Below are positions 6,102-58,217 of a stretch of DNA of 64,000 nucleotides, one piece after another. Each line of letters opens with the position of its first letter. Positions within the stretch are counted from its first letter, which is position 1. Below the pieces are notes generated by a model. The model made no database searches. It saw nothing but the letters and a program-made list of their open reading frames with translations, and had not been told where the DNA came from. The position numbers were made by a program, and so were the translations under genes. The DNA lies in NCBI RefSeq assembly GCF_036967205.1, contig NZ_CP146022.1, positions 1,302,001-1,366,000 of the forward strand. The letters are read 5' to 3'. Source of the stretch: Streptomyces sp. Q6 (GTDB lineage Bacteria; Actinomycetota; Actinomycetes; Streptomycetales; Streptomycetaceae).

Positions 6102-6144
6102 CGCCCGCGCGGCGGGGGACCACGGGGATCACGAGGGGGCACGG

Positions 6145-37489: not shown

Positions 37490-37794
37490 TGCTGCTCCCC
37501 GCCGGCGTCGGCGACCAGCCGATCGAGGTCGCCGAAGTCGCCGACCGGCTGGCCGAGTTGGCCGTCGCGCCACCGGCCGGGCGGGTGGCCGACATGGGCG
37601 GGCCCGAGGTGCGGACGTTCACAGATCTGGCCCGTACGTATCTGAAGGCGACGGGGAAGCGGCGCGCGGTGGCCGGAGAGCCGCTGCCCGGAAAGACGAT
37701 GCGAGCGTTCCGCGCGGGCGGCCATCTCGCGCCGGAGCGTGCGGTGGGGAAGGGCACGTTCGAGGAGTACCTGGCGGGGCGGCGGGCGGGTTAG
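37462..37794 (+). pseudogene. Remnant of an NmrA-type NAD(P)H oxidoreductase gene
   Basis: About 110 codons homologous to the C-terminus of NmrA-like or epimerase-type oxidoreductases: AKLPVMLLPAGVGDQPIEV, DRLAELAVAPPAGRVADMGG, then FTDLARTYLKATGKRRAV and LAPERAVGKGTFEEYLA. The Rossmann domain is missing. The 5' end joins the sigma-factor fragment in another frame near 37455-37462, so one deletion fused the two genes. Such oxidoreductases are typical neighbours of ECF41 sigma factors, which supports a single former locus. Confidence 0.75.
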
Positions 37795-37804
37795 AGGGGC
37801 GGGG

Positions 37805-37980
37805 CTCGCCGCTGCGAGAGGGCGGGCTCGCGGCTCTCAAGGACTCGCGGCTGCGAGAGGGCGGGCCCGCGGCTCCCAAGGACTCGCCGCTGCGAGAGGG
37901 CGGGCTCGCGGCTCCCAAGGACTCGCCGCTGCGAGAGGGCGGGCTCGCGGCTCCCAAGGACTCGCGGCTCCGAGAGAGGG
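37805..37980. repeat. 39-bp tandem repeat, about 4.5 copies
   Basis: Copies begin at 37805, 37844, 37883 and 37922, with a partial fifth at 37961. Each starts CTCGCSGCTGCGAGAGGGCG and ends GCTCCCAAGGA. Copies 3 and 4 are identical; copies 1 and 2 differ at two or three bases. The period is a multiple of three, and the minus strand reads as a 13-residue repeat (RVLGSREPALSQR), but the ROK gene stops just before it (37985). Each unit contains short inverted halves (CTCGCCGC and GCGGCGAG-like), so it can fold. Confidence 0.95.
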
Positions 37981-37984
37981 CCGA

Positions 37985-39155
37985 TCACGTCGTAGGCGGC
38001 GCGAAGACGTCCCGTTGGGCGGACTCGCGGGCCATCAGGAGGGCTCCGCGCAGTACCGCCCCGCCACCGAGTTCCCCGGCCCTGACCTCGGTCGGGAGCG
38101 GTGACATCACGGTCAGCCGCTCCGCGACCCGTCGGGCCAGGGCGTCGCCGCCCGCCCGGCCGACCTCGCCCGCGAGCACGACGCACCCCGGGTCGAGCAC
38201 CGCGACCACCGCGGCGGCCCCGAGCACGACCCGGTCGGCGAGCGCGTCGAGGAACCCGTCCGCCCCGCCGCGCACGGCCTCCTTCACCACGTCCGCCGCC
38301 CGCTCCACCGGCTCCCCGGCTCCACGAGCCCGTGGGCGGCGGCCAGTTCGAGGATCGCCGCGGAACCGGCGAGCGAGTGGAACCCGCCGTCGCACCCGGT
38401 CGCGGACGGCAGCTGCCGCGTCCCGGGCACGGGCAGGAAGCCGACCTCGCCCGTGCCGCCGGAGGCGCCCCGGCGCAGCGTGCCGTCGAGGACCACGGCC
38501 GCGCCGATGCCGATCCCGAGCCAGAGCAGGACGAATGTGTCGCGGTCGCGGGTGGCGCCGTCGCGCTGTTCGGCGAGGGCGGCCAGGTTCGTCTCGTTCT
38601 CGACCAGCACCCGCGCGGGCAACCGCTCCTGGAGCGCCGTGTTCAGGAGGCGGTGCCATTCGGGGAGCCCAGAGGAGTCACGCAGTTCGCCCGTGGCCGG
38701 GTCGATCAGGCCGGGCGCCCCGACGCCGACCGTGTGCAGCCGCTCGGCGCCCGCCTCCTTCGCCGTACGTTGGACGAGGGCGACGGCGCGCTCGACGGCG
38801 TCGCCCGTGCTCTCCCCGGCGCGACGGGCGCGGACGCCTCGGCGAGCACGGTGCCGAGCAGGTCGGCGACGACGAGCCGGACGCCCCCGGTACGCACGTC
38901 GAGCGCGGCGAGGTGGGCTCGGTCGGCGACGATCCCGTAGAGCCGCGCGTTCGGGCCGCGCCGCTGGGCGCCCGTCTCCCCGACGACCTCGATCAGGCCG
39001 GACGCGCTGAGGCGCTCGACGAGGTCGGCGACGCTGGGCCGGGACAGGCCGGTCAGTTCCTTCAACTGCCCTGCGGTGAGCGGCCCTTCCTCCTGGAGGT
39101 GGCGGAGCGCGAGCCGGTCGTTGATGGCGCGGGCGGTCCTCGGCGATGCGGGCAT
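37985..39155 (-). pseudogene. ROK family regulator with two frameshifts
   Basis: Three frames join to a complete 390-residue ROK repressor. From ATG 39155: winged helix (RPSVADLVERLSASGLIEVV). After a break at CCCC 38814-38817: DAVERAVALVQRTAKEAG, VGAPGLIDP, the sugar-kinase-like fold with VENETNLAAL, LGIGIGAAVVLDG and the CDGGFHSLAG region. After a second break at CCCC 38314-38317: ERAADVVKEAV to the end. One extra C at each site on the plus strand restores VAPGESTGDAV and LVEPGEPVERA. The gene is divergent from an MFS gene, with a perfect palindrome between. It probably represses that transporter in response to a sugar. Confidence 0.85.
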
Positions 39156-40600: not shown

Positions 40601-41989
40601 ATGGACCTCGGCGTGCGCTGGAAACTGCACGGCGACGGGCGCACCCCGGCCCCCGGCGCAGTCGTCCGCCCCGACGAGCGGCTTTCGTGGCCGCGCACCA
40701 TCGGGCTCGGCGCCCAGCACGTGGTCGCCATGTTCGGCGCCTCGTTCGTCGCCCCGGTCCTGATGGGGCTCGACCCGAACCTCGCGATCATGATGTCCGG
40801 TGTCGCGACGGTCATCTTCCTGATCGCCACGCGCGGCCGGGTCCCCAGCTACCTGGGCTGTTCGCTCTCCTTCGTGGGCGTCGCCGCCGTGATCCGGGCC
40901 TCGGGCGGGACGAGCGCCACGGTCACCGGCGCGGTCTTCGTCGTCGGCGTCGTGCTGTTCCTCGTCGGTCTCGCGGTGCAGAAGTTCGGCGCGCGGATCA
41001 TCCACGCCGCGATGCCGCCGATCGTGACCGGCGCGGTCGTCATGCTGATCGGCTTCAACCTGGCGCCGGTCACGGCCTCCACCTACTGGCCGACCGACCA
41101 GTGGACGGCGCTGCTCGTCATGCTGTTCACCGGTTTGGCCGTGGTGTGCCTGCGCGGTTTCTGGTCCCGGATCGCGATCTTCCTCGGCCTGCTCTTCGGC
41201 TACGGCATCTCCTGGGTCTTCGACCAGGTCTTCGGCAAGATCCACTCGGCGAACGGCGGCACGGAGGCGGTCGACCACTGGCGTCTGGACCTCTCCGCGG
41301 TCGGCAAGGCGGACTGGATCGGCCTGCCCTCCTTCCACGCGCCGTCCTTCGAGTGGTCGGCGATCCTCGTGGCGCTGCCTGTCGTCATCGCGCTGATCGC
41401 GGAGAACGCCGGACACGTCAAGGCGGTCGGGGAGATGACCGGCGACAACCTGGACGACAAGCTGGGCACCGCGATCTCCGCGGACGGCGCCGCGTCGATG
41501 CTCTCCACCGCGGTCGGCGGCCCGCCGAACACCACGTACTCCGAGAACATCGGCGTCATGGCCGCGACCCGCGTCTACTCGACGGCGGCCTACTGGGCCG
41601 CGGCCGGTTTCGCCCTCCTGTTCGGTCTGTGCCCGAAGTTCGGCGCGATCGTGGCCGCGATCCCGGGCGGCGTCCTCGGCGGCATCACCGTCATCCTGTA
41701 CGGCATGATCGGCCTGCTCGGCGCGCAGATCTGGATCAACGCCAAGGTCGACCTGCGCAACCCGCTGAACCTGGTCCCCGCCGCCGCGGGCATCATCATC
41801 GGCGTCGGCAACGTCTCGCTGAAGTTCACCGACAACTTCTCGCTGAGCGGCATCGCCCTCGGCACGATCGTCGTCATCACCGGCTACCACGCGCTGCGCG
41901 CGATGGCCCCCGCGCACCTCAAGTCGCAGGAGCCGCTGCTCGACTCCGGTACGTCCACGTACGACAAGGAGTCCGCGGACAAGGGCTGA
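40601..41989 (+). CDS. NCS2 nucleobase permease (uracil/xanthine type)
   Basis: A 462-residue member of the nucleobase:cation symporter-2 family with about 14 membrane segments. WPRTIGLGAQHVVAMFGAS is the family start. AENAGHVKAVGEMTG and VGGPPNTTYSENIGVMAAT are the substrate-site motifs; the Glu in the first is the UraA proton/substrate residue. MDLGVRWKLHGDG at 40601 is preferred to TTG 40565 from recalled family starts, though the binding site is weak. It ends ten bases before the end of ubiX on the other strand. Uracil is the likeliest substrate. Confidence 0.88.
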   Translation: MDLGVRWKLHGDGRTPAPGAVVRPDERLSWPRTIGLGAQHVVAMFGASFVAPVLMGLDPNLAIMMSGVATVIFLIATRGRVPSYLGCSLSFVGVAAVIRASGGTSATVTGAVFVVGVVLFLVGLAVQKFGARIIHAAMPPIVTGAVVMLIGFNLAPVTASTYWPTDQWTALLVMLFTGLAVVCLRGFWSRIAIFLGLLFGYGISWVFDQVFGKIHSANGGTEAVDHWRLDLSAVGKADWIGLPSFHAPSFEWSAILVALPVVIALIAENAGHVKAVGEMTGDNLDDKLGTAISADGAASMLSTAVGGPPNTTYSENIGVMAATRVYSTAAYWAAAGFALLFGLCPKFGAIVAAIPGGVLGGITVILYGMIGLLGAQIWINAKVDLRNPLNLVPAAAGIIIGVGNVSLKFTDNFSLSGIALGTIVVITGYHALRAMAPAHLKSQEPLLDSGTSTYDKESADKG

Positions 41990-41999
41990 GCCCGCCCTT

Positions 42000-42563
42000 C
42001 TAGCCGCCGGCCCACCGCTCCACCGCGGGTCCCGGCAGGGACAGCTGGTCGAGGATCCGTGCGACCGTGTGGTCGACCAGGTCCTCGACCGTGCGGGGGC
42101 GCTGGTAGAAGGCCGGCATGGGCGGCACGATGCGGACGCCCATGCGGGACAGGGCCAGCATGTTCTCCAGGTGGATTTCTTGCAGCGGGCTCTCGCGCGG
42201 GACGAGGACGAGCGGGCGGCGTTCCTTGAGGGTGACGTCGGCGGCCCGGCCGACGAGCCCGTCGGCGTAGCCGGCCCGGATTCCCGCGAGGGTCTTCATG
42301 CTGCACGGCGCGATCACCATGCCGTCGGTGCGGAACGAACCCGAGGAGACCGCGGCCGCCTGGTCCCCCGGCCGGTACGTCACGTCGGCGAGCTTGACGA
42401 CGTCCTCGACGCGGCGGCCCGTCTCCAGCTCGATCGTGGTGCGGGCCCAGCGGCTCAGGACGAGATGCCGTTCGACGCCGGGAGCCGTCTCGCGCAGTAC
42501 CTCCAGGAGCCGGATCCCGTAGACCGCGCCGGTCGCCCCCGTGATGCCGACGATCAGCCGCAC
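42000..42563 (-). CDS. UbiX-like flavin prenyltransferase
   Basis: A 187-residue UbiX/Pad1-type enzyme that makes prenylated FMN, the cofactor of UbiD decarboxylases. It starts VRLIVGITGATGAVYGIRLL with the flavin-binding GITGATGA. VLSRWARTTIELE, SGSFRTDGMVIAPCSMKTLAGI and LVLVPRESPLQEIHLENM are the remaining family motifs. GTG 42563 lies ten bases inside the end of the ubiD gene, so both are coupled. Having its own UbiX next to UbiD suggests a self-contained decarboxylation module. Confidence 0.92.
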   Translation of the reverse strand: MRLIVGITGATGAVYGIRLLEVLRETAPGVERHLVLSRWARTTIELETGRRVEDVVKLADVTYRPGDQAAAVSSGSFRTDGMVIAPCSMKTLAGIRAGYADGLVGRAADVTLKERRPLVLVPRESPLQEIHLENMLALSRMGVRIVPPMPAFYQRPRTVEDLVDHTVARILDQLSLPGPAVERWAGG

Positions 42564-43963
42564 GGCGCGCCACGTCGGTCGAGGAGGGCGCGGGCCCGCG
42601 CGGTGCGGGCCGGGTCGGTGCGGATGCGTACGGCGTCGAAGTGCGGCCCGCGGGTCGCGTCGAGACCCATCCGGGACGTCGTGCCGTCGGGGGTGGAGGA
42701 CGGGTCGAGGGGGCTGCCGGGCAGGCCGTCGACCGTGAACACGTCGGCGTGCGGCTGGAGATGGGTCGCCAGCGCCCACAGCACGTCCTCGTCGCGGGTC
42801 ACGTCCACGTCGTCGTCGACCGCGACGACCGTCTTCAGATACGGGTCCCAGCCCAGCAGCGCGAGGAGGATCTGGCGGGCCTGACCCGGCCGGGCCTGCC
42901 GCAGGGCGACGTACGCGTGGAAGTGCGTGCCCGAGGTCGGGTAGTGCAGGGCCGTGACCTCCGGGAAGCGGGCCATGAGCTGTTCGGCCATCTCCGACTC
43001 GCGCGGGATGCGCGCGAGGTTGAGATGGTCGGCGCTGTTGCCTCCGACCACGTCGAACAGGACCGCGTCGCGGCGGCGCAGCACGCTGTGCACCGTGAGG
43101 ACGTTGTTCGTGGAGCGGTCGGAGGAGTAGCCGGAGAACTCGCCGAAGGGGCCTTCGGGCGCGGTCCGCGCCGGGTCGATGACGCCTTCGACGACGAGTT
43201 CGGCGCTCGCGGGGACACGGATGCCGTGCCGCGGGGTCCGTACGACGTCGAGGGGGGCGCCCGACAGGCCGCCCGCCAGGGTGCGTTCGTCGACGTCGGG
43301 GGCGACACGGGCGGACGCGGCGAGCTGGAAGAGCGGGTGCGCGCCGACGACCATCGCGACCGGCAGGACCTCGCCGCGTTCCTCGGCGAGACGCAGCAGC
43401 TGCCACAGGTGGCCCCGGGAGTGCAGGCTCGTGGCGAGTTCGGTGCGGCGGTGGACGAGGGCGCGGTGGTAGCTGAGGTTGCCGGCCCGTCCCGGCACGC
43501 CGGCCGGGGCCTCCGCGGTGATGACGCCGCTGGTCAGGTACGGGCCGCGGTCGGAGTCGAAGTGCTTCAGGAGCGGCAGGGCGGTGAGGTCGACGGCCTC
43601 GCCCTCGGCGACCGTGTCGAGGACGGGGCCGGTGGGGACGAGGCGCGGCTCCACGCGGCGGGCCGCCGCCCGTTGGTAGGCGCGGTGCAGTCCGGCCGGG
43701 TCCGTGCCGAGGAGCCGGGCGACGCGGCGCCGCGAGGCGAAGACGTTGGTGACGAGGGTGGTGCCGTCCAGACCCTTCACCCAGGGGCAGACCAGGAGCT
43801 CGTCACGGCCGCGCGCGGCGAGTTCGGCGACGAGCGCGGCGACGTCCTCCCCCGCGATCTCCTCGTCGACGGTCAGGACGTCGTCGGGGTGCGCCGCGGT
43901 GTACGCGGCGAGGAAAGCGTGCAGGTCCTGACCCTCGCGCACGGCCGTCTCAGTGACTGTCAC
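42554..43963 (-). CDS. UbiD family decarboxylase
   Basis: A 469-residue UbiD-type enzyme that reversibly decarboxylates unsaturated or (hetero)aromatic acids with prenylated FMN. The family core PEGPFGEFSGY carries E270 and E275. KHFDSDRGPYLTSGVITA, RHGIRVPASAELVVEG and GGNSADHLNLARIPRE are further hallmarks. GTG 43963 overlaps the upstream gene by 14 bases, behind GGGGGTG. Sequence alone does not give the substrate; members act on phenolic, indole, pyrrole, furan and other acids. It is part of the eight-gene minus-strand cluster. Confidence 0.92.
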   Translation of the reverse strand: MTVTETAVREGQDLHAFLAAYTAAHPDDVLTVDEEIAGEDVAALVAELAARGRDELLVCPWVKGLDGTTLVTNVFASRRRVARLLGTDPAGLHRAYQRAAARRVEPRLVPTGPVLDTVAEGEAVDLTALPLLKHFDSDRGPYLTSGVITAEAPAGVPGRAGNLSYHRALVHRRTELATSLHSRGHLWQLLRLAEERGEVLPVAMVVGAHPLFQLAASARVAPDVDERTLAGGLSGAPLDVVRTPRHGIRVPASAELVVEGVIDPARTAPEGPFGEFSGYSSDRSTNNVLTVHSVLRRRDAVLFDVVGGNSADHLNLARIPRESEMAEQLMARFPEVTALHYPTSGTHFHAYVALRQARPGQARQILLALLGWDPYLKTVVAVDDDVDVTRDEDVLWALATHLQPHADVFTVDGLPGSPLDPSSTPDGTTSRMGLDATRGPHFDAVRIRTDPARTARARALLDRRGAPCG

Positions 43964-44693
43964 AGCACACCCCCGCGTGCACCCCGCCCGTGAACAGCCC
44001 ACCCCAGGACGGCGATTCGACCGCGGTGCCGAGCAGGTCGAGCCCGGTGCGGACGGCGACCCGCGCCCCGTCGTGCACGGGTTTGCCGAGCTCCCGCTCC
44101 ACCATGGCCGCGACGGGCGCCACCGGCAGTTCCGTACCGGCGACGACGAGGCACTGGGCGTCCGCCGAGTCGGCGTCGAGGAGGATGCGGCGGACCCGGG
44201 CCACGGGCAGCTCGGCCGCCTCGCGCGGGGTGCCCAGGCCGAGCGCGGTGACCGAGGCCAGGCGCAGGCCCGCCGCGAGGAACGTGTCGGCGAGGCGTCC
44301 CGCGCTGCGCTCGGTGCCCGCCGTGACCAGGGCGACGGAGTGGGTGCCGGACCGGGCGAGGAGGTCGAGCTGGCCGAGGGTCACGGTGGAGGCGCGCACG
44401 CCGGCCGTCCGCTCGATGACGCGGGACACGGCGCGGGCGTGGGCGGCGCCGTCGAGCCCCGCGGAGGTGCCGTGCCACACGATGGCGTCGGCGCCGGCCT
44501 GCGCCAACTGGTCGGCGGCGCGCTCCAGTTCGACGGAGTGGGAGGGCGCGAGGCCGGGCCCGTACTGGATCTCGGGGAGGGTGGCGCGGGCGGTGGGGTG
44601 GGCGATCTCGACCTGGACCGGCGCGCAGATCTGGGCGACCCAGCGGTCGGCGCCGAGCGAGGTGGCGGGCAGGAGGTGTCCGATGCGCTGCAT
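43950..44693 (-). CDS. Asp/Glu racemase superfamily protein, arylmalonate-decarboxylase-like
   Basis: A 247-residue protein of the Asp/Glu racemase fold (maleate isomerase, arylmalonate decarboxylase). The first catalytic loop reads AIVWHGTSAG with G75-T76-S77, as in arylmalonate decarboxylase, where Gly replaces the first cysteine and Thr-Ser hold the carboxylate. At the second site the usual SC(G/T) is VAGT, with A185 in place of the only remaining cysteine. Neither catalytic Cys is therefore present at its usual place; C181 lies four residues upstream. ATG 44693 has GGAG upstream. It overlaps ubiD. Role: perhaps decarboxylation or isomerisation in the same pathway. Confidence 0.75.
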   Translation of the reverse strand: MQRIGHLLPATSLGADRWVAQICAPVQVEIAHPTARATLPEIQYGPGLAPSHSVELERAADQLAQAGADAIVWHGTSAGLDGAAHARAVSRVIERTAGVRASTVTLGQLDLLARSGTHSVALVTAGTERSAGRLADTFLAAGLRLASVTALGLGTPREAAELPVARVRRILLDADSADAQCLVVAGTELPVAPVAAMVERELGKPVHDGARVAVRTGLDLLGTAVESPSWGGLFTGGVHAGVCCDSH

Positions 44694-44773
44694 GAGGGCT
44701 CCACGAGAGGGTGACGGGCACGGGCGGGGGTGCGGGTGGCCGGTCCCCCGGACCGGCCACCCGCGACCGGGCG

Positions 44774-45703
44774 TCAGGTACGCGCGACCGTGTCCAGGGA
44801 CGCGTACGTGTCCGTCAGCCGCAGCTGCGCCTCCTCCTGGTCGCGCGGCGGCGGTGTCGGCTTGAGGCCGAGGAGCTTGGCCATGTTGTTGCCGAGGTAG
44901 CCCTCCAGGTGTTCCTCGGACAGGTGCATGCCCTGCGGCGGCGGGCCGCACAGCACCTCCAGCTCGCGCGCCCACATGCCCGGTTCGTTGGGCGGCGAGT
45001 CGGTGCCGAAGACGAGCTGGTGCTTCTCCATCTGCTGCGCGAACTCGACGATGCGCGACTGGAGCAGCCAGCCGGACTCCCCGTACACGTTCGGCGAGTC
45101 GAGGATCATGTAGAGCGCCTCGAAGCAGTAGACGCCGCCGGTCTGCACCCCGAAGTGCGCGAGGATGAAGTTGACGTCCTTGAACTCGCGGATGATCGGA
45201 TAGAACTGGGTCGGGATCGAGTACGGACCGTCGCCGGTGTGGATGAGGACGACGACACCCAGTTCGTCGCAGACCCGCAGCACGGGCCGCAGCCAGTCCA
45301 GGGCACGGTCGGGACGGTACGCGTGCATGTTGGCATGCAGCTTGACCATCTTGTAGCCGTACTCCTTGACGTGGAACTCCAGCTCCTTCGCCCCGTTCTC
45401 GGGCCCGAAGCGCGGGTTGTACATGAAGTTCCCGATGAACCGGTCGGGGTACGCCTGGACCAGTTCGGTGATGTACGACATGTAGTCGCGGATGCCCTCG
45501 CGTCCGGTGCGCATCCCGTCCTGCCAGACGGAGTTGCCGGGCGGCGGCATGATGCAGCCGTAGTCGATGCGGCGGGGCTTTCCGTTGATCATGTAGGGGC
45601 CGTTCATCATCTCCAGCGTGCGCTCACCGGTGAACGGGGAGCCGTCGTGCCGCCACGCCTGGTCGACGATGTTCGTCGGGTGCATATGGGTGTCGATGAT
45701 CAA
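44774..45703 (-). CDS. ACMSD-like metal-dependent hydrolase (amidohydrolase 2)
   Basis: A 309-residue amidohydrolase-2 family enzyme. The first metal motif is IIDTHMHP at the very start; MVKLHANMHAYRPD, VVVLIHTGDG, FILAHFGVQTGG and LVFGTDSPPNEPG supply the other ligands. The family includes ACMS decarboxylase, resorcylate and isoorotate decarboxylases and related hydratases/hydrolases, so C-C cleavage is as likely as hydrolysis. TTG 45703 follows AAGGAA and gives the expected start at the metal motif. It is in the minus-strand catabolic cluster, between the Mo hydroxylase and racemase-like genes. Confidence 0.85.
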   Translation of the reverse strand: MIIDTHMHPTNIVDQAWRHDGSPFTGERTLEMMNGPYMINGKPRRIDYGCIMPPPGNSVWQDGMRTGREGIRDYMSYITELVQAYPDRFIGNFMYNPRFGPENGAKELEFHVKEYGYKMVKLHANMHAYRPDRALDWLRPVLRVCDELGVVVLIHTGDGPYSIPTQFYPIIREFKDVNFILAHFGVQTGGVYCFEALYMILDSPNVYGESGWLLQSRIVEFAQQMEKHQLVFGTDSPPNEPGMWARELEVLCGPPPQGMHLSEEHLEGYLGNNMAKLLGLKPTPPPRDQEEAQLRLTDTYASLDTVART

Positions 45704-45778
45704 GGTGCTGTTTCCTTCCCAGCTGGTGCCAACCGTGTTCCGTGGTGGACCGTTTGGGGACCCAGGGCAGGGCCCGCC

Positions 45779-48016
45779 TCACCTCCTCTCGCTGTGGGTG
45801 ATGTCCTCGGGGCGCACCGGCACCTTGGGCAGCTCCAGGCCGGTCGCGGCGCGCAGCGCGTTGGCGATGGCCGGCGTGGAGGACAGGGTGGGCGGCTCGC
45901 CGACGCCGTTGAGGCCGTACGGGGAGTCGGGGTGCGGAAGTTCCAGCAGGTCGATGGGGACGTGCGGCATGTCGGCGATGGTGGGGATGAGGTAGTCGGT
46001 GAAGGACGGGTTGCGCACCCGCCCGTTCTCGACGCGCAGCTCCTCCATCACGGCGAGGCCGAGCCCCTGGGCGCTGCCGCCCTCGATCTGGCCCTCGACG
46101 GCGAGGGGGTTCATCGCCTTGCCGACGTCCTGCGCGGTGGCCAGCTCGACGACTTTGACGAGGCCGAGTTCGGTGTCCACGTCGACGACGGCACGGTGCG
46201 CGGCGAACGCGAACGCGATGTGGGCGTCTCCCTGGCCGCGTTCGGCGTCGACGGGGTGGGTGCGGCGGTGCGCGTACTCGTACTCCTCCTCCAGCGGGCC
46301 GTGCACGGCGAGGAGTTCGGTCAGTGACCCCTCCCCCAGTACGGTGATGCGCTCGCGCAGCGCCTTGCAGGCGCCCTGGACCGCTCCCCCGCTCATCCAG
46401 GTGATGCGGGACGCGGAGGACGAGCCCGCGTCGCCGACCTGGGTGTCGGCGGGCAGGACGACGACGCGCTCGACGCCGAGTTCGGTGCGGACGATCTGGG
46501 CCTGCACGGTGACGATGCCCTGGCCGCACTCGGCGGCGGCGGTGTGCACCTCGGCGACGGGCTCGCCGCCGTTCAGGGTGAGCCGGACGCGGGCCACGGA
46601 GCGGTCGTCGACGCCGCCGGAGAAGCCGATGGCCTTGACGCCGATCGCGTAGCCGACGCCGCGCCGGACGCCCTCGCCGTGGCTGGTGTTGTTGAGGCCG
46701 CCGGGGGTGCCGAAGGGGCCGTCCCCGGCGGGAGGCAGCGGCCGGGCGCGGAGTCGTTCGAGGAGTTCGGCGGCGGGGGCGGGCCCGTCGACGGCCTGCC
46801 CCGTCGGCAGGACCGTCCCGGTCGTCATGGCGTTGCGCACCCGCAACTCGACCGGGTCCATGCCGAGTTCACGGGCGAGCTTGTCGAGGTTGGACTCGAC
46901 GCCGTAGCAGGACTGCACAGCGCCGAAGCCGCGCATCGCCCCGCAGGGCGGGTTGTTGGTGAAGACGGAGAAGCCGTCGATCTCGGCGTGCGGCACGTCG
47001 TAGGCGCCGGCCGCGAAGTACGAGCCGTTGGCGATGACGACCTGGGAGGTGGAGGTGTAGGCGCCGCCGTCGAACAGGAGCCGCGCCTTCACGAAGACGA
47101 TCCGTCCCTCGCGGGTGGCGCCGTGCTCGAACCACATGCGGGCGGGATGGCGGTGCACGTGCCCGTAGAAGGACTCCTCGCGGTGGTAGCTCATCTTGAC
47201 GGGGCGGCCGGTGTGCAGGGCGAGCATCGCCGCGTGGATCTGCACGGAGACGTCCTCGCGGCCGCCGAACGCGCCGCCCACGCCGGAGAGCGTGAGCCGC
47301 ACCTTGTCCGGGGGCAGGCCGAGCGCCGCGCACATCTGGTGCTGGTCGTCGTGGAGCCACTGCGTGGAGACGTAGACGTCGACGCCGCCGTCCTCGGCGG
47401 GGATCGCGAGTCCGGACTCGGGCCCGAGGAACGCCTGGTCCTGCATGCCGACCTCGTACGTGCCGCTGACGACGACGTCGGCCTCGCGGCGGGCGGCGTC
47501 CAGGTCGCCGTGGCGGATGCGGACATGGCGGACCACGTTGCCCGGCCTGCCGTCGACGCGGGTCTCGTGGACCAGGGGGCCCACTCCCCGCACGGCGTCC
47601 TCGGGGTCGGTGAGCGCCGGCAGCTCCTCGTACGTGACGTCGATCAGGGCGAGGGCGCGGCGGGCCGTCTCGGGGTGGTCGGCGGCGACGAGGGCCACCG
47701 GTTCGCCCTGGTAACGGACGCGGTCGGCGGCGAGGACGGGCTGGTCGGCGACCTTCATGCCGTACGTCGCCTGTCCCGGCACGTCCTCGTGGGTGAGCAC
47801 CGCCACGACCCCGGGCAGCCGCAGCGCCGCCGTCGTGTCGATCCCGACGATGCGGGCGCTGGGGTGCGGCGAGCGCAGGGTCGCGCCCCACACCATGCCC
47901 TCGGCCCGCAGGTCGGAGGAGTACGCGAAGTCCCCCCTGACCTTCAGGCGGCCGTCGGGGCGCGGGGTGCTGGCGCCGACGCCGTCACGCGTGGCGGCTC
48001 CGGTGGCGGTGCTCAC
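45779..48016 (-). CDS. Xanthine dehydrogenase family molybdenum-binding subunit
   Basis: A 745-residue large subunit of a molybdenum hydroxylase, which adds water-derived OH to electron-poor heteroaromatic rings. It starts with RLKVRGDFAYSSDL and has GVGGAFGGREDVSVQIHAA, CGAMRGFGAVQSCYGVE and the catalytic GLNGVGE with E707. The usual partners, an FAD subunit and a 2Fe-2S subunit, are not in the window, so it must borrow them or act with an unlinked pair. GTG 48016 is the family start. It lies 79 bases behind the GntR gene on the same strand. Confidence 0.9.
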   Translation of the reverse strand: MSTATGAATRDGVGASTPRPDGRLKVRGDFAYSSDLRAEGMVWGATLRSPHPSARIVGIDTTAALRLPGVVAVLTHEDVPGQATYGMKVADQPVLAADRVRYQGEPVALVAADHPETARRALALIDVTYEELPALTDPEDAVRGVGPLVHETRVDGRPGNVVRHVRIRHGDLDAARREADVVVSGTYEVGMQDQAFLGPESGLAIPAEDGGVDVYVSTQWLHDDQHQMCAALGLPPDKVRLTLSGVGGAFGGREDVSVQIHAAMLALHTGRPVKMSYHREESFYGHVHRHPARMWFEHGATREGRIVFVKARLLFDGGAYTSTSQVVIANGSYFAAGAYDVPHAEIDGFSVFTNNPPCGAMRGFGAVQSCYGVESNLDKLARELGMDPVELRVRNAMTTGTVLPTGQAVDGPAPAAELLERLRARPLPPAGDGPFGTPGGLNNTSHGEGVRRGVGYAIGVKAIGFSGGVDDRSVARVRLTLNGGEPVAEVHTAAAECGQGIVTVQAQIVRTELGVERVVVLPADTQVGDAGSSSASRITWMSGGAVQGACKALRERITVLGEGSLTELLAVHGPLEEEYEYAHRRTHPVDAERGQGDAHIAFAFAAHRAVVDVDTELGLVKVVELATAQDVGKAMNPLAVEGQIEGGSAQGLGLAVMEELRVENGRVRNPSFTDYLIPTIADMPHVPIDLLELPHPDSPYGLNGVGEPPTLSSTPAIANALRAATGLELPKVPVRPEDITHSERR

Positions 48017-48095
48017 GGTCGTTCACGTCCCTTCTGCGACAAACCTGGTGCCGAACGGGAGTGGAGCGGGTGCGTGGTGCGGTCGCGCTGTGCGG

Positions 48096-48809
48096 TCAGT
48101 CGACGGGTCGGACGTGCCCCGGGCCGGACGAGGGGCCGGGGGCGACCGCCTGGGAGAGGCGGATGCGCAGCTTGCGGATGTGGTCGCGGGCCGCGAGGTC
48201 GGCGGCGTCCGGGTCGCCGGACGTCATCGCCTCGAAGATCCGCCGGTGCTCGGCGACGGCGAGCCGCGGTGCCTCCTGGCCGCGCCACAGCTGGTGCAGC
48301 GCGAGGTGGGCCTTGCCCTGGATGGTGTCGAGGGCGGCCGTCAGGTGGGCGTTGCCCGCCACTTCACGGATGGTGCGGTGGTAGGCCATGTCCATCTCGA
48401 TGTGGGTGCGCTCGTCCACGCCGGTGCCGACCTCGCGCTCGTGGCGCTCCAGGAGGTCGTGCAGTTCGGCGACCCGGGAGGCGTCGAGGCGCTCGGTGGC
48501 CAGGCGCGCGGCCAGTCCCTCCATCACCTCGCGGACGACGTACAGCTGGCGTACGTCCTCCACGTCGACGGTGGCGACCACGGCGCCCTTGTGCGGGACG
48601 TGCGTGGCGAGGCCGTCGTGGATGAGGCGCTGCACCGCCTCCCGTACGGGGCTGCGGCTGATGTTCATCTGGGCCGCGAGGGCGGGCACGGACAAGGCGT
48701 CGCCGGGCCGCAGCCGGTTGGCGAGGACGGCGCTCTTAAGTTCCTCGTACGCCCGGTCCGCCAGGAGGCTGCCGGCCGCGACCGGGTTGACCGCTCGCTC
48801 TGCGTTCAT
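48096..48809 (-). CDS. GntR/FadR-subfamily regulator of the catabolic cluster
   Basis: A 237-residue regulator. Residues 15-85 are the GntR winged helix (ADRAYEELKSAVLANRLRPG, MNISRSPVREAVQRLIHDGL). Residues 95-220 are an all-helical FCD effector domain with conserved D and H metal ligands (DMAYHRTI, GNAHL, EHRRIFEAM). ATG 48809 is chosen over TTG 48815 because GAGGGGGAG is then correctly spaced. It lies inside the cluster, and two matching palindromes lie about 45 bases ahead of its own start and 37 bases ahead of the first gene of the cluster. Confidence 0.9.
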   Translation of the reverse strand: MNAERAVNPVAAGSLLADRAYEELKSAVLANRLRPGDALSVPALAAQMNISRSPVREAVQRLIHDGLATHVPHKGAVVATVDVEDVRQLYVVREVMEGLAARLATERLDASRVAELHDLLERHEREVGTGVDERTHIEMDMAYHRTIREVAGNAHLTAALDTIQGKAHLALHQLWRGQEAPRLAVAEHRRIFEAMTSGDPDAADLAARDHIRKLRIRLSQAVAPGPSSGPGHVRPVD

Positions 48810-48822
48810 CGTCAACTCCCCC

Positions 48823-50274
48823 TCACTGCTTGCCCGTTGGACTTACATGTTGCATGTAATGTTCGGGCGGGTCAATGGACGTGACGGACTTCGCGCGATC
48901 CTCCCGGCGCCGCAGCCGCGGGATCCGCAGGTGGTGGAAGAACAGGTTGAGCAGCACCGCCGTGATCGTGCCGAGGATGATCCCGCTCTCGAACAGGGCG
49001 TGCAGCTGGCGGCCCGGCATCTGCTCGGCGAACTGCGGGAAGGCGGTGGGCAGGAAGCCGACGCCCATGCTCGCGGCGACGAGGATGGTGTTGCGCTGGT
49101 CGGTGAGGTCGGCCTGGACGAGGATCTGGACGCCGACGACCGCGATGGTGGAGAAGAGGACGATGGTCGCGCCGCCGAGCACGGAGGACGGCATCGCCGC
49201 CACGACCGCCCCGACCTTCGGCATCAGCCCGAGCACCATCATGATCACGCCGGACGCGGCGACGATCCACCGGGATTTGACGCGGGTCAGCCGGATCAGC
49301 CCGATGTTCTGCGAGTACACCGTGCTGGGGAAGGAGTTGAAGACGCCGGCGAGCGCCGTGGCGAGCCCGTCGGCACGCAGCGCGCGCGTCACGTGCCGCC
49401 CTTGCACCTCGCGCCCCACGATCTCGCCGACCGCGAAGAACTGCCCGATGGACTCGACCGCGATGATCACCATCACGAGGACGATGGACAGCACGGCGAT
49501 GACGTCGAACCGCGGGGCGCCGTAGTGCAGCGGCGCGGCCGTCCCCAGCCAGGACGCGGACCCGATCCGCGAGAAGTCGGTGAACCCGGCGACGGCCGCC
49601 ACGACCGTCCCCACCACCAGCCCGACCAGCACCGCGACGGTGGCGGCGAAGCCCCGGGACAGCTTGTGCAGCAGCAGGATGACGACGAGCGTGACGGCGG
49701 CGAGCCCCAGGTGCGCGGGCGAGCCGAACGAGCCCTGGCTCGGATCCCCGCCGCCCACCTGACGTGCGGCGACCGCGAGCAGGGTGATGCCGACGACGGT
49801 CACGATGGTGCCGGTGACCAGCGGCGGGAAGAAGCGCACCAGCTTGCTGAAGACGGGCGCGACCACGAACAGCGCGAGCCCGGCCGCGATGACCGCGCCG
49901 AACACCGTCGGCAGCCCGGCTTCGGCGCCGCCGGCCGCGAGCCCCACCGACACCAGCGAGGGCACGGCCGTGGTCGACGTGCCCTGCACCACGGGCAGCC
50001 GGATGCCGATACCGGGCAGCCCGACCGACTGGAGCAGCGTGGCGAGGCCGCAGGTCAGCAGCGAGGCGTTGACGAGCAGGGCGATGTCGTCGCCCTTCAT
50101 TCCGATGCCCTCGGCGACGAGCAGCGGCATGACGACCGCGCCCGCGTAGAAGGCGAGCACGTGCTGGAATCCGTAGACGACGAGCCGCCACAGCGAGGGC
50201 ACGGCCTCGACGGGGTCCTGCGGTGCGGCCGCGCCGGCCGGCTCGGTCCCGTCCTTCACTTCCTTGTCGGACAT
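48823..50274 (-). CDS. NCS2 family permease of the catabolic cluster
   Basis: A 483-residue nucleobase:cation symporter-2 type permease (xanthine/uric acid branch) with about 14 membrane segments. PSLWRLVVYGFQHVLAFYAG is the family start; QSVGLPGIGIRLPVVQGTS and GEIVGREVQGRHVTRALRAD are the Glu-containing site, followed by NSFPSTVYSQNIGLI. GGAGGGAGA precedes ATG 50274. Its presence suggests import of a heterocycle. The last 40 bases of the gene contain one of the two GntR-type palindromes. Confidence 0.92.
   Translation of the reverse strand: MSDKEVKDGTEPAGAAAPQDPVEAVPSLWRLVVYGFQHVLAFYAGAVVMPLLVAEGIGMKGDDIALLVNASLLTCGLATLLQSVGLPGIGIRLPVVQGTSTTAVPSLVSVGLAAGGAEAGLPTVFGAVIAAGLALFVVAPVFSKLVRFFPPLVTGTIVTVVGITLLAVAARQVGGGDPSQGSFGSPAHLGLAAVTLVVILLLHKLSRGFAATVAVLVGLVVGTVVAAVAGFTDFSRIGSASWLGTAAPLHYGAPRFDVIAVLSIVLVMVIIAVESIGQFFAVGEIVGREVQGRHVTRALRADGLATALAGVFNSFPSTVYSQNIGLIRLTRVKSRWIVAASGVIMMVLGLMPKVGAVVAAMPSSVLGGATIVLFSTIAVVGVQILVQADLTDQRNTILVAASMGVGFLPTAFPQFAEQMPGRQLHALFESGIILGTITAVLLNLFFHHLRIPRLRRREDRAKSVTSIDPPEHYMQHVSPTGKQ
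48847..48862. promoter_or_regulatory. GntR operator inside the permease gene
   Basis: ATGTTGCATGTAATGT, centred on TTGCATGTAA (48850-48859), is an imperfect palindrome within the last codons of the permease gene and about 45 bases before the gntR start. It shares the TTGCATG-AA core with the palindrome at 51792-51809. Binding by the GntR protein is inferred. Confidence 0.6.
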
Positions 50275-50359
50275 GTGCGTTCTCCCTCCACCCGCCGCGC
50301 GGGTGTTGTCTCGTGCACACTTGCCGGGGCCGCGGACGGACGGCCGGGGGCGACGGGTC

Positions 50360-51763
50360 TCAGCGCCGCCAGGGGATGGTGAGCGGGCCGAATCCGGCCC
50401 GGTGGACGAGGCGTTCGGCCCGTTCCTGGGCTTCGGCCAGGACCGCCTCCTCGTCGACGAGGGTGCAGCGTCCCTCCTCCACGACGACGCGGCCGCCGAC
50501 CACGGTCATCTCGACGTCACCGCCCCGCGCGGAGTAGACGAGCGCGGCCACCGCCCGGTGCAGCGGCCGCAGGTGGGGCCGGTCGAGCGCGACGACGGCG
50601 AGGTCGGCGGGGGCGCCGGGCGCGAGCACTCCGGCGCCGGAGCCGACGTACCGGCCGCCCTCGCGGGTGGCGAGTTCCAGGGCCTCCTCGCAGCGCGCCA
50701 CCGCCGGGTCGAGGGTGTCGAGGCGCTGGGCGAACAGGGTCTGTTTCATCACCTCGAACATGTCCTGGCGGTGCCCGGCGCTCGGCCCGTCGGTGCCGAG
50801 CGCCACCGCGGCCCCGGCGTCGCGGAGCCGGCGCAGCGACATCACGCCGGACGCCAGGTAGGCGTTGGAGGACGGATTGTGGGAGACACCGGCGCCGCGC
50901 TCCCCGACCGCCTTGACCTCGTCGTCGTCGAGCCAGACGGCGTGGGCGAGGGTGGCCCGCTCGTCCAGCAGCCCCTCCGCCGCCAGCCAGTTGACGGGCC
51001 TGATCCCGTACGCGTCGAGATAGCTCGCCGGGTCCTTGGCGCCCTCGCTGCAGTGGGTGTGCCACTTGGTGCCGTGCGTACGGGCCAACTCGGCGGCGCC
51101 GCGCACCAGTTCCTGGTCGACGTAGCTGAGGTTGAGCGGCGCGGGCCAGATCTCGACGGGCGAGCCGGGCGGTCGGGCCCGCATGCAGTCGCGGGTCAGG
51201 TCGAGCTCGTCGGCGACCGAGTAGCGGAACAGGGCGTCGGGCAGGCCGCGCGCGGCGGCGACCGCGGTCCTGTGGCCGATCATGCCGCGCGCGACGACCC
51301 CGCGGAGCCCGGTCGCCTCGATGGCGTCGGCCACCGAGAGCACGGTCTCCGCGTCGGTCGGCGCGTAGTGGTTGTCGACGACGGTCGTGATGCCGGCCCG
51401 CAGCGCCTCGACCGCGCCGAGCGTGGCCGCGACGCGCGCGTCCTCGGCGTCGACGGCGATGGAGTACGGCCACATGAACTCGCAGAGCCAGGGCCAGATC
51501 GACTGTCCCTCGCCCAGGCCGCGGGCGAGCGCCTGGAAGAGGTGGCTGTGGCCGTCGACGAAGCCGGGCAGGACGGCGCGGCCCCGGCAGTCCACGGTCC
51601 GGGCAGCCCGCCAGGCGGCCTCGATGTCCGCCGCGGGTCCCACCGCGACGATCCGCCCGCCGGTCACGGCGACGGCACCGGGCTCGTACACGTTCCTGGA
51701 GTCGTCGACGGTGACCACGTGACCGCCGGTCAAGAGGAGATCGCAGATGCGCGGGGAGTCCAT
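50360..51763 (-). CDS. Deaminase-type amidohydrolase (8-oxoguanine deaminase-like)
   Basis: A 467-residue amidohydrolase of the chlorohydrolase/deaminase branch. Metal ligands: VDGHSH, WHTHCSEGA, and LGTDGPSAG; the family's VSHNPSSNAYLASG is also present. Annotated relatives include 8-oxoguanine and guanine deaminases and TrzA/AtzB-like enzymes acting on heterocyclic amines. GGAGG precedes ATG 51763; the ATG at 51793 would lie inside the operator. It is the first gene of the eight-gene cluster and 85 bases ahead of the permease gene. Confidence 0.85.
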   Translation of the reverse strand: MDSPRICDLLLTGGHVVTVDDSRNVYEPGAVAVTGGRIVAVGPAADIEAAWRAARTVDCRGRAVLPGFVDGHSHLFQALARGLGEGQSIWPWLCEFMWPYSIAVDAEDARVAATLGAVEALRAGITTVVDNHYAPTDAETVLSVADAIEATGLRGVVARGMIGHRTAVAAARGLPDALFRYSVADELDLTRDCMRARPPGSPVEIWPAPLNLSYVDQELVRGAAELARTHGTKWHTHCSEGAKDPASYLDAYGIRPVNWLAAEGLLDERATLAHAVWLDDDEVKAVGERGAGVSHNPSSNAYLASGVMSLRRLRDAGAAVALGTDGPSAGHRQDMFEVMKQTLFAQRLDTLDPAVARCEEALELATREGGRYVGSGAGVLAPGAPADLAVVALDRPHLRPLHRAVAALVYSARGGDVEMTVVGGRVVVEEGRCTLVDEEAVLAEAQERAERLVHRAGFGPLTIPWRR

Positions 51764-51791
51764 GGAGCCTCCAAGGGGTCGGCCGGACTTC

Positions 51792-51809
51792 ATATTGCAT
51801 GCAACATAT
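51792..51809. promoter_or_regulatory. GntR operator before the deaminase gene
   Basis: ATATTGCATGCAACATAT, with the perfect core TTGCATGCAA (51795-51804), lies 29-46 bases ahead of the deaminase start. It is the best palindrome in the region and AT-rich. It matches the element before gntR. Confidence 0.65.
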
Positions 51810-51877: not shown

Positions 51878-53071
51878 TCAGTCGGCCAGCTCGTAGGCGT
51901 AGTCCGGCGTGAAGGTCCCCGGCCGCCCCTTGCAGCCGTCGGACTCGCCGGGCAGCTTCACCCACAGATAGGCGTCGATCCCGGGCTCACCGGTCCGCAG
52001 GGTCGGCGCCTGCCCCAGCTTGCGGCCGTCGGGGTCGCACCACTCGCCGTCCGCCGGGGCGCCGTTGCCGTTGCGGCTGGTGTCGATGACGGCGCCGAGG
52101 CCGCTCGGGCCGCCCATCGCGGCGAGCACCCGGCGGGCGTACGCGATCTCGTCCGCGGTCCGGTTGAAGTTCGAGACGTTGCTGAAGATCCCGTCGGAGG
52201 ACGCGGCCGACGCGGCGCCGGCCGCCCGCAGCCGCGCCGCCTGGGTGCCGGCCGGGTTCCAGTCGGAGTGGCCCGCGTCGTAGTAGACCCGGGCCCGCGG
52301 GTTCGCGGCCTTCATGACTCGGCCCGCGCGCGCCAACGCCGCGTACCGGTCGTCCCGTTGGCCTCCGCTGAGGCACTCCGTCTGGGACAGCGCGTCGGGC
52401 TCCAGGATCACGATGACCTCCCGGGAGCCGAGGCCGGCGGCGAACTTGTCGATCCAGGCGTCGTAGGCGGGGATGTCGGGCGCCCCGCCGTCCGAGTAGC
52501 CGCCGCAGTCGCGCCCGGGGATCGCGTACGCCACGACCGCCGGGACCTGCCCGGCGCCCGCCGCCCCCGAGGTCACCGCGCGCACCCGGGACGTGATCGT
52601 GTCGGGTGTGAAGTCGGCGAACCAGACGGCGGCGGGCCGGTCCGCGATGCGGGACTCGATCAGCGGGCGCCGCGGGTCGGAGCGGTTGGCCCGCACCCAG
52701 TCCTGGACCTGCGAGTCGCCGTGCCGGTAGAGGCCGGTCGAGGCCGGTGCCGCGGGCGCCTTCGTCGTGGGCCTCGGCCGTGCGGGCGCGGACTTCTTCA
52801 CCGCGGGCTTCGTCGCGCGCTTCGACGGGGACGGGGACGGGGAGGCACTGGGGAACGAGGGAGCCGGCAGCGGGGCCATGCTGGGCGACTCGCTGACCAC
52901 GGGCCGCGCCTCGTCGCCGCCGTCCGGGCCGCTGTCCAGAGCGGAGACCAGACCCGTGACCGCCCCGACGGCCACCACGGCCGAGGCGGCCGCGACCATC
53001 GCGCCGCGTCGCGCCGCCCTCCGCCGTGCGGCCCGGCGCTCGGCGAGCCGCCGCGCACGTAACCCTGACAC
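51878..53071 (-). CDS. GH6 family cellulase, membrane-anchored or secreted
   Basis: A 397-residue glycoside hydrolase family 6 protein (endoglucanase/cellobiohydrolase). The N-terminus is very Arg-rich, then one membrane segment (about 25-45), then a Ser/Pro/Lys linker (60-110). The catalytic domain has VVAYAIPGRDCGGYSDGG, VIVILEPDALSQTECL with the acid Asp, YYDAGHSDWNP, VSNFNRT and EWCDPDGRKLG. No cellulose-binding module is present. GTG 53071 follows GAGGGGGAG. The basic start and anchor suggest it stays with the membrane, or is released after cleavage. Confidence 0.9.
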   Translation of the reverse strand: MSGLRARRLAERRAARRRAARRGAMVAAASAVVAVGAVTGLVSALDSGPDGGDEARPVVSESPSMAPLPAPSFPSASPSPSPSKRATKPAVKKSAPARPRPTTKAPAAPASTGLYRHGDSQVQDWVRANRSDPRRPLIESRIADRPAAVWFADFTPDTITSRVRAVTSGAAGAGQVPAVVAYAIPGRDCGGYSDGGAPDIPAYDAWIDKFAAGLGSREVIVILEPDALSQTECLSGGQRDDRYAALARAGRVMKAANPRARVYYDAGHSDWNPAGTQAARLRAAGAASAASSDGIFSNVSNFNRTADEIAYARRVLAAMGGPSGLGAVIDTSRNGNGAPADGEWCDPDGRKLGQAPTLRTGEPGIDAYLWVKLPGESDGCKGRPGTFTPDYAYELAD

Positions 53072-53169
53072 CGTGTTCTCCCCCTCGTCCTGGCCCGCCG
53101 TTCCCTCGTTCTGGGGAAGCCCCCGGCCAGCCGACACCCGCGTCAGCCTACGACTGGGACCCTTCGTGC

Positions 53170-56667: not shown

Positions 56668-56734
56668 GGGGTGCGGACTCCTTGCGGATACAGGGCGGTG
56701 AGGGCGGGAAGGGGAGGGAAGGGCGGGGGCTGGG

Positions 56735-57538: not shown

Positions 57539-57621
57539 GACTGTCCTCGGAGTCGTACGAAAGGGTGGGAGGGATCGACATGACGGTACGTTTCCGCCGG
57601 TCGGCGCGACAAGAGAGGACC

Positions 57622-57680
57622 GTTGCGTCTCAGCGTGCGATCTGTTGCGTGCGCGGGGCCGGGAACGGCGATTCGTTGCG
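57622..57680. promoter_or_regulatory. Phased GTTGCG boxes upstream of davA
   Basis: GTTGCG occurs at 57622, 57644 and 57675, spaced 22 and 31 bases, that is two and three helical turns, between the Lrp gene and davA. The same element repeats before the permease gene (59851-59928). Phased arrays on one helix face are typical of Lrp-family wrapping sites. Confidence 0.6.
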
Positions 57681-57754
57681 CGCTCGCGTGAGTCCTTGGT
57701 CGCGGTCCGTACGGATCCGTCTCCCCCGGGGCGACGACCCGGTGGATCAGCAGC

Positions 57755-58207: not shown

Positions 58208-58217
58208 GGCAGGCGCT

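Follow-up and report, generated by a model that had tools for sequence, protein, structure and literature searches.

A recurrent, probably GntR-controlled gene cluster that pairs UbiD with an Amidohydro_2 enzyme and may degrade pteridines to xanthine

The window, a 64,000-nucleotide stretch (G000:C1:1302001-1366000) of an 8.95-Mb genome that is probably from a Streptomyces (the closest named loci of the marker gene AH2 are 97-98% identical), carries eight co-directional minus-strand genes at positions 42000-51763. These eight genes are one unit. Tentatively, and with slightly less than an even chance in our judgment, we read this unit as a GntR-controlled regulon that breaks down a pteridine to xanthine. 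We infer the substrate, the order of the steps and the reaction assigned to each enzyme. An earlier, sequence-only reading of the window had placed eight catabolic genes here; all are where it put them on the minus strand, and each has a matching Pfam/NCBIfam profile, as listed below from the 5' end of the unit. The genes for the arylmalonate decarboxylase (AMDase)-fold protein and UbiD overlap by 14 bp and those for UbiD and UbiX by 10 bp. The gap between the NCS2 and GntR genes is 13 bp, and the remaining intergenic gaps are 75-85 bp.

50360-51763, minus strand: AHdea, an amidohydrolase-superfamily deaminase (TRZ/ATZ/COG0402 type) of 467 amino acids; PF01979 (Amidohydro_1), 176 bits.
48823-50274, minus strand: NCS2 nucleobase:cation symporter of the xanthine-permease (PbuX) type; TIGR03173 pbuX, 483 bits, cut-off 414.
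48096-48809, minus strand: GntR/FCD transcriptional regulator; PF07729, PF00392.
45779-48016, minus strand: PucD-type molybdenum (Mo)-binding subunit of xanthine dehydrogenase (XDH); TIGR03196 pucD, 864 bits, cut-off 784.
44774-45703, minus strand: AH2, an Amidohydro_2 (ACMSD-superfamily) enzyme and the marker of the pathway; PF04909, 130 bits.
43950-44693, minus strand: AMDase/Asp-Glu-racemase-fold protein; PF17645, 42.8 bits, cut-off 25.9.
42554-43963, minus strand: UbiD, a putative decarboxylase dependent on prenylated flavin mononucleotide (prFMN); PF01977/PF20696 and TIGR00148, 257 bits, cut-off 245.
42000-42563, minus strand: UbiX, the flavin prenyltransferase that supplies prFMN; TIGR00421, 248 bits, cut-off 109.

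No NCBIfam family matches AH2, and it was therefore used as the bait for relatives of the cluster. A scan of genome contigs with peptide patterns of the window AH2, which finds close relatives only, yielded 44 loci, in Streptomyces, Actinomadura, Bailinhaonella, Amycolatopsis, Pseudonocardia, Nocardia, Nocardiopsis, Murinocardiopsis, Saccharopolyspora, Georgenia and a metagenome-assembled genome (MAG) of the Caldilineales. AH2 is also encoded in 91 plasmid records at E 1e-60, 63 of them from Sinorhizobium. The 44 genome contig loci, 14 plasmid loci (15 read, 14 counted) and two further loci make up a set of 60 that spans Actinomycetota, Proteobacteria and one Chloroflexota MAG, that of the Caldilineales. 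Presence was scored at 100 bits (80 for short proteins), thresholds of our own choosing, and the loci are not independent, many being from congeners. UbiD is present in 59 of the 60; the sole exception, L038, begins at a contig end just past UbiX. NCS2 and the deaminase are each present in 57 loci and the XDH Mo subunit in 54. Four of the six loci without a counted Mo subunit (L058, L067, L068 and L070) have a weaker match (25-35%) beside an iron-sulfur (FeS) subunit, and no Mo subunit was found in the sequence stretch examined for L062 and L072. UbiX accompanies AH2 in 49 loci; it was not found beside the other 11, where it may be supplied from elsewhere. A CobW-type GTPase (42/60), GntR (39/60), the FeS subunit (29/60), the flavin adenine dinucleotide (FAD) subunit (25/60) and the AMDase-fold protein (14/60) are less constant.

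AH2 and UbiD lie 1.2-10.2 kb apart (median 3.2 kb). Since the source genome has only two UbiD-family matches in 8.95 Mb, their pairing in 59 of 60 loci is above chance. Gene order and strand vary among the clusters of Streptomyces, Actinomadura, Nocardia/Amycolatopsis, Rhizobiaceae and Burkholderiales, so the association survives rearrangement. The sequence-only reading had proposed a single catabolic unit, to be abandoned if the homologues never occurred together elsewhere; the gene set does recur, and the AH2-UbiD pairing, together with two operator-like sites that have no further match in the genome, bears the proposal out. Its suggestion that the island is accessory DNA also agrees with the distribution of AH2, found in 2 of 120 relatives (36 genera) at E 1e-20 and in 2 of 396 genomes of a phylum survey at E 1e-100, the source genome being counted both times. 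The second genome of the survey is an actinobacterial one (G293, locus L078). That locus contains a second, different UbiD (5667-6977; 31% identical to the cluster UbiD) between the Mo subunit and AH2.

The Caldilineales version has GntR, UbiD, AH2, all three XDH subunits and a BMP-type importer. Its contig starts 2.6 kb before AH2, and neither the deaminase nor NCS2 was seen in the 13.5 kb examined from that contig end. Judged by this version, the pathway seems to have hydroxylation, AH2 and UbiD as its core and deamination and the permease as its entry.

Two upstream regions within the unit have a 16-bp pattern in common, ATTRCATGCAACATRT, which has exactly two matches in the 8.95-Mb genome with up to two mismatches, none in 100 shuffles of the window and none in the reversed genome.

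51794-51809, plus strand: operator-like site ATTGCATGCAACATAT, upstream of AHdea; one of the two genome matches.
48845-48860, minus strand: operator-like site ATTACATGCAACATGT, at the 3' end of NCS2 and upstream of gntR; the other genome match.

The pattern was derived from these two sites, and the genome count is thus no independent test of it. Independent support comes instead from the core ATGCAACAT: all 14 of 14 Streptomyces loci have it upstream of gntR, and 8 of these 14 have it upstream of the deaminase as well. It is present in 0/3 Actinomadura/Bailinhaonella loci of the same comparison, which took in L005-L021. Both 16-bp sites are putative operators of the cluster's own GntR. The purine regulator PucR stands beside 5 of the 60 loci at 100 bits, all in Nocardia, and beside 8 at 70 bits, the other three being in Actinomadura.

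The route that we favor would begin with the import by NCS2 of a pteridine, such as pterin, isoxanthopterin, xanthopterin or a 6-carboxy form. AHdea would take off the 2-amino group, turning pterin into lumazine, and the Mo hydroxylase would oxidize C7 and C6, up to tetraoxypteridine. AH2 would then open the oxidized pyrazine ring as a cyclic amide, the ring re-closing as xanthine-8-carboxylate, and UbiD, with prFMN from UbiX, would decarboxylate this to xanthine. Xanthine would pass on to xanthine dehydrogenase and then to urate oxidase. In 1964 McNutt and Damle reportedly described a tetraoxypteridine isomerase of Alcaligenes (EC 5.5.1.3) that yields xanthine-8-carboxylate; we know of no gene for this activity. 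The narrower proposal, that AH2 is this tetraoxypteridine cycloisomerase, a metal-dependent one with a tandem paralogue (AH2a) lacking the metal ligands in Proteobacteria, and that UbiD acts on xanthine-8-carboxylate, is doubtful. The cluster holds the kinds of enzyme that such a route needs: a deaminase, a Mo hydroxylase, an amidohydrolase and a decarboxylase for heteroaromatic acids. The oxidations have precedents in the passages available to us, in which xanthine oxidase converts lumazine to violapterin (PMC9966888) and XDH makes isoxanthopterin, as well as leucopterin from xanthopterin (PMC11121863).

A purine-like or pteridine ring is suggested by the families of the permease and Mo subunit, which pass the xanthine-permease (TIGR03173) and pucD (TIGR03196) cut-offs, by the Georgenia and PucR neighbors, by the deaminase slot and by the Caldilineales core. 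The Georgenia cluster (L047) consists of AH2, UbiD, UbiX, NCS2, CobW, XdhC and the FAD, FeS and Mo subunits, and beside it are urate oxidase (344 bits, cut-off 168), 5-hydroxyisourate (HIU) hydrolase, UraD and MoaA. Xanthine as the end product would explain the urate-route neighbors. The sequence-only reading had named a purine-, pyrimidine- or pyridine-like acid as the substrate. This is narrowed here to a purine or pteridine ring entering the urate route, in view of the urate genes of L047, PucR and the 2PAJ-type deaminase described below; the arylmalonate-type decarboxylation is not supported.

The deaminase slot is filled by different proteins in different lineages. The window deaminase has PRK07228 as its best NCBIfam match (293 bits, below the cut-off of 522) and AtzA (4v1x, 196 bits) as its best PDB match, and is only 26-32% identical to three other deaminase types in the same slot of relatives. 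All four types are 26-33% identical to one another by local and 19-31% by global alignment; the window type occurs in 38 loci, the L057 type in 8, the L058 type in 6 and the L010 type in 5. That the slot has been refilled in this way suggests that the incoming ring has to be deaminated, whichever enzyme does it. The L058 type, from Burkholderiales, matches 2paj_A best (457 bits, versus 292 for 3hpa and 283 for the 8-oxoguanine deaminase 7ww2). Its members are 52-53% identical to 2PAJ and have the motifs APTT and ADH[HN]Y in common with it; APTT is present in 2PAJ, L058, L068, L069, L071, L074, L075 and L076. In all six loci examined, the start of the gene for this deaminase is about 5-16 kb away from that of AH2, and a seventh record has 6 kb by coordinates. 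We take 2PAJ to be one of the enzymes reported in Hall 2010a. A review passage states that those enzymes deaminate isoxanthopterin and pterin-6-carboxylate (PMC5270733).

The deaminases nearest to 2PAJ, from Rahnella and Pantoea, and a Qingshengfaniella relative (L074:7994-11454, L075:6423-11479, L076:6531-10407) adjoin ATP-binding cassette (ABC) substrate-binding proteins and a 2-oxoglutarate (2OG)-Fe(II) oxygenase. They form another gene group, perhaps for pterins.

Compared with the window AH2, the copies of the Streptomyces, Actinomadura and Bailinhaonella loci are 91-98% identical, those of the remaining genome contig loci 77-81% and those of the 14 counted plasmid loci of Proteobacteria 71-75%. 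Residues H6, H8, K121, H155, H183 and D235 are invariant (52/52). The PF04909 match, these residues and the fold matches agree in making AH2 an Amidohydro_2-fold protein with the HxH, H, H, D set. In an AlphaFold model of fair quality (predicted local distance difference test score, pLDDT, 64; predicted template modeling score, pTM, 0.68) the invariant residues lie at the ends of strands 1, 4, 5, 6 and 8. Two-metal hydrolases such as dihydroorotase have a Lys at strand 4, and the HxH, K, H, H, D set suits cyclic-amide hydrolysis. A profile search of PDB sequences with AH2 returned nothing at E 0.01, and a single-sequence search returned two weak LigW matches at E 2e-4.

Proteobacteria (S. meliloti, Caballeronia and Paracoccus) have a second copy, AH2a, which is 61-68% identical to the window AH2. 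In AH2a the HxH reads S-C-Y and the strand-4 Lys is Gln. Because HxH and this Lys are lost, AH2a is probably a non-catalytic (pseudoenzyme) partner of AH2b.

L057:14035-14961: AH2a, tandem paralogue.
L058:17069-18001: AH2a, tandem paralogue.
L062:17042-17983: AH2a, tandem paralogue.

The Foldseek matches of AH2 to AibH1H2 and SfbO and the AH2a/AH2b tandem brought up a dimetal-oxygenase reading of AH2; this is unlikely, no sequence link having been found.

In UbiD, E270 and E275, which by analogy we take to be catalytic, and H313 are conserved in 51/51 sequences and R321 in 50/51. With family cut-offs passed, the catalytic carboxylates conserved and UbiX present, the pair has the features of a prFMN system. 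The best PDB match of UbiD is 6h6v (177 bits), identified in a passage as the furan-2,5-dicarboxylate decarboxylase HmfF (PMC8988006), and AnInD, an indole-3-carboxylate decarboxylase, is also among the best solved relatives (149 bits). H296 and R304 of the 6h6v chain, counted along the alignment, align with H313 and R321 of the window UbiD, and a passage in PMC7976604 calls H297 of HmfF key for furan substrates.

The label "arylmalonate-decarboxylase-like" in the sequence-only reading holds for the 43950-44693 product at the level of the fold only (PF17645, above cut-off). In a 12-sequence alignment nine Streptomyces-type sequences, the window protein included, have Gly at both cysteine positions, presumably the catalytic positions of AMDase, and arylmalonate-type decarboxylation was rejected for this reason. 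In the proteins of L028, L058 and L062 the second Cys is still present. The window protein matches NF052327 at 43.5 bits, below the cut-off of 225.

The source genome encodes four Mo large subunits and three [2Fe-2S] (Fer2_2) partners, none of the three at the cluster, and there is no FAD gene among the eight cluster genes; a complete Mo hydroxylase encoded locally is thereby ruled out. The window Mo subunit is 57% identical to that of a complete XDH locus at 6.78 Mb of the same genome (L064). Relatives such as L010, L019, L047 and L057 encode FAD and FeS subunits of their own, and those in the Streptomyces cluster L019 are 75% and 79% identical to the FAD and FeS subunits of L064. This similarity makes it plausible that the window Mo subunit borrows its FAD and FeS subunits in trans from the 6.78-Mb locus. 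The later purine genes, for 2-oxo-4-hydroxy-4-carboxy-5-ureidoimidazoline (OHCU) decarboxylase, HIUase and uricase, stand in a row at 6.86 Mb (L080; G000:C1:6860000-6875000). L080 also encodes two proteins similar to NCS2 permeases and an amidohydrolase of the COG0402 type that shares 40% identity with the Caballeronia deaminase.

Several observations weigh against a pteridine-to-xanthine route. We know of no assay of any of the cluster's enzymes with a pteridine, and our literature search found no description of EC 5.5.1.3 or of McNutt's work. The window deaminase is 28% identical to 2PAJ and has APLN in place of APTT. The closest relatives of 2PAJ, from Pantoea and Rahnella (63-64%), sit beside genes other than AH2, and 12 records 47-53% identical to the Caballeronia deaminase have no genus in common with the 91 AH2 plasmid records. 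Urate-route genes stand beside the cluster in one locus only (L047), and the eight cluster genes include none for the biosynthesis of folate or pterins. The fold of AH2 does not pick a reaction, since decarboxylases, hydratases and hydrolases all occur among its fold neighbors and the quality of the model is no better than fair. Finally, a passage in PMC7976604 reports that PA0254/HudA did not decarboxylate imidazole-2-carboxylate and argues that imidazole C2 is electronically unsuited; this weighs against the UbiD step because xanthine-8-carboxylate is such an imidazole-2-carboxylate compound. Were this limit general to prFMN enzymes, the substrate of UbiD would have to be a 6-carboxy-pteridine or some other acid, and the 8-carboxylate would be removed by AH2 or by no enzyme.

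One alternative, which we consider improbable, is a hydrolytic xanthine route of the Rabinowitz-Barker type. AH2 or the COG0402 enzyme would open xanthine to 4-ureido-5-imidazole carboxylate, UbiD would decarboxylate 4-amino-5-imidazole carboxylate, and the deaminase would turn 4-aminoimidazole into imidazolone. The xanthine-type permease suits this, PA0254 had trace activity (1.3%) on imidazole-4-carboxylate and none on the 2-carboxylate according to a passage in PMC7976604, and, as a passage of PMC3519856 states, even Clostridium acidurici yielded no genes for these steps. The hosts are mostly aerobes. With urate oxidase in the source genome and in Georgenia, a second route for xanthine would be superfluous. 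The annotated part of the neighbors showed neither an imidazolonase nor a formiminoglycine enzyme, and the 2PAJ-type deaminases of Burkholderiales also speak against this route. Another alternative is breakdown of a 7-deazapurine (7-carboxy-7-deazaguanine and relatives): UbiD would act on a pyrrole-3-carboxylate, the deaminase would form 7-deazaxanthine, the Mo enzyme would oxidize C8 and AH2 would open the lactam. This chemistry is favorable to UbiD, AnInD is among its best solved relatives, and BMP-type nucleoside importers occur in the Rhizobiaceae and Chloroflexota copies. The urate oxidase and PucR neighbors and the 2PAJ-type deaminase would, however, be left without a reason, PA0254 did not decarboxylate pyrrole-3-carboxylate (a passage in PMC7976604), and AnInD takes indole-3-carboxylate only (a passage in PMC8988006). 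We regard this possibility as very improbable.

The sequence-only reading allowed an N-heteroaromatic acid, such as that of a pyridine or pyrimidine, without relation to pteridines and purines. This has the advantage that UbiD, a Mo hydroxylase and an ACMSD-superfamily enzyme are a usual toolkit for aromatic acids, and that 5-carboxyvanillate, dihydroxybenzoate and isoorotate decarboxylases are among the fold neighbors of AH2. Against it, the annotated neighborhoods have no ring-cleaving dioxygenase or maleamate-type gene in the cluster, the sole listed aromatic dioxygenase, hppD in L063, being about 11 kb upstream among other genes. The urate-route and PucR neighbors, and a xanthine-type permease and a PucD-type Mo subunit over their cut-offs, likewise count against this explanation, to which we give a small chance. 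The last two proteins and the deaminase would by themselves suit ordinary purine salvage from guanine to urate, with an attached UbiD/AH2 pair of another function. That no pair is more constant than AH2 with UbiD (59/60), that in Chloroflexota they stay with XDH where the deaminase and NCS2 were not seen (13.5 kb from the contig end), and that the source genome keeps other purine genes apart from the cluster, at 6.78 and 6.86 Mb, all make such an attachment very unlikely.

The cluster is flanked by the following genes, assigned from Pfam/NCBIfam profiles.

40601-41989, plus strand: NCS2 permease nearer to uracil permeases, convergent with the cluster.
51878-53137, minus strand: glycosyl hydrolase family 6 gene.

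Three further observations concern the rest of the window. A ROK-type gene at 37985-39155 (minus strand) is in three overlapping or adjoining pieces, a MarR-type helix-turn-helix and two ROK matches, one of them just under the cut-off, which would fit a broken gene or sequence errors in this region. At 37739-38186 the open reading frame translations contain a short in-frame tandem repeat with units GLAAARGRARGSQ. A flavin amine oxidase, a carbon-nitrogen hydrolase, an Lrp/AsnC regulator and an amino-acid permease stand in a row at 54973-59627 and probably form a unit for the catabolism of an amine or amino acid.

Almost all cells make pterins and folates. The sequence-only reading knew no described pathway with this combination of genes, and our literature search likewise found none among the matches listed, which included no paper joining UbiD, a Mo hydroxylase and pterin or purine breakdown, and no bacterial genes for cleaving the pteridine ring once it has been deaminated. 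A search on the S. meliloti locus tags gave one passing mention. A 2022 Variovorax study follows degradation as far as deaminopteroate and raises in its discussion the question of which organisms take it further (PMC9513972). The gene set is portable across distant soil bacteria, and the fate of the pteridine ring becomes a testable question. If the pteridine-to-xanthine route is right, there would be a gene for an activity known since the 1960s (EC 5.5.1.3), a pterin-to-xanthine funnel common to Actinomycetota, Proteobacteria and Chloroflexota, and an explanation for AH2, which is kept 71-75% identical between Actinomycetota and Proteobacteria and has no NCBIfam name. The chemistry of prFMN would also be widened, UbiD being, as far as we know, the first prFMN enzyme on a purine.

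Comparison with known systems shows resemblance in parts. The ACMSD-superfamily decarboxylases and hydratases LigW, 2,6-DHBD, IDCase and LigJ are less than 20% identical to AH2, and AH2 differs from ACMSD in its invariant Lys at the end of strand 4, which ACMSD itself presumably lacks. The Hmf pathway for furan-2,5-dicarboxylate has a UbiD of the same HmfF branch and reportedly also a Mo-dependent dehydrogenase, but the cluster has no coenzyme A enzymes and instead has a nucleobase permease, a deaminase and AH2. The canonical actinobacterial purine genes (XDH, NCS2, PucR and urate oxidase; L064 and L080) use the same permease and Mo-enzyme families, whereas those loci of the source genome have no AH2 (there is one in the genome), neither of the UbiD matches and no match to the operator motif. 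With the pterin deaminases Arad3529 and 2PAJ the likeness is that the Burkholderiales cluster deaminase has 2PAJ as its best solved relative; the window deaminase is of another lineage (28% to 2PAJ). Work on enzymes of this type is said to concern single enzymes, with nothing assigned downstream. Fan et al. in 2013 reportedly suspected, from genome context, a pathway of pterin degradation not yet described, of which Arad3529 may be the first enzyme. If that context is this cluster, the idea of a pathway is not new, but to our knowledge its enzymes are still without assignment. Nearest to the step proposed for AH2 is EC 5.5.1.3 of Alcaligenes, an activity for which no gene is known to us, in which an oxidized pteridine is likewise contracted to xanthine-8-carboxylate.

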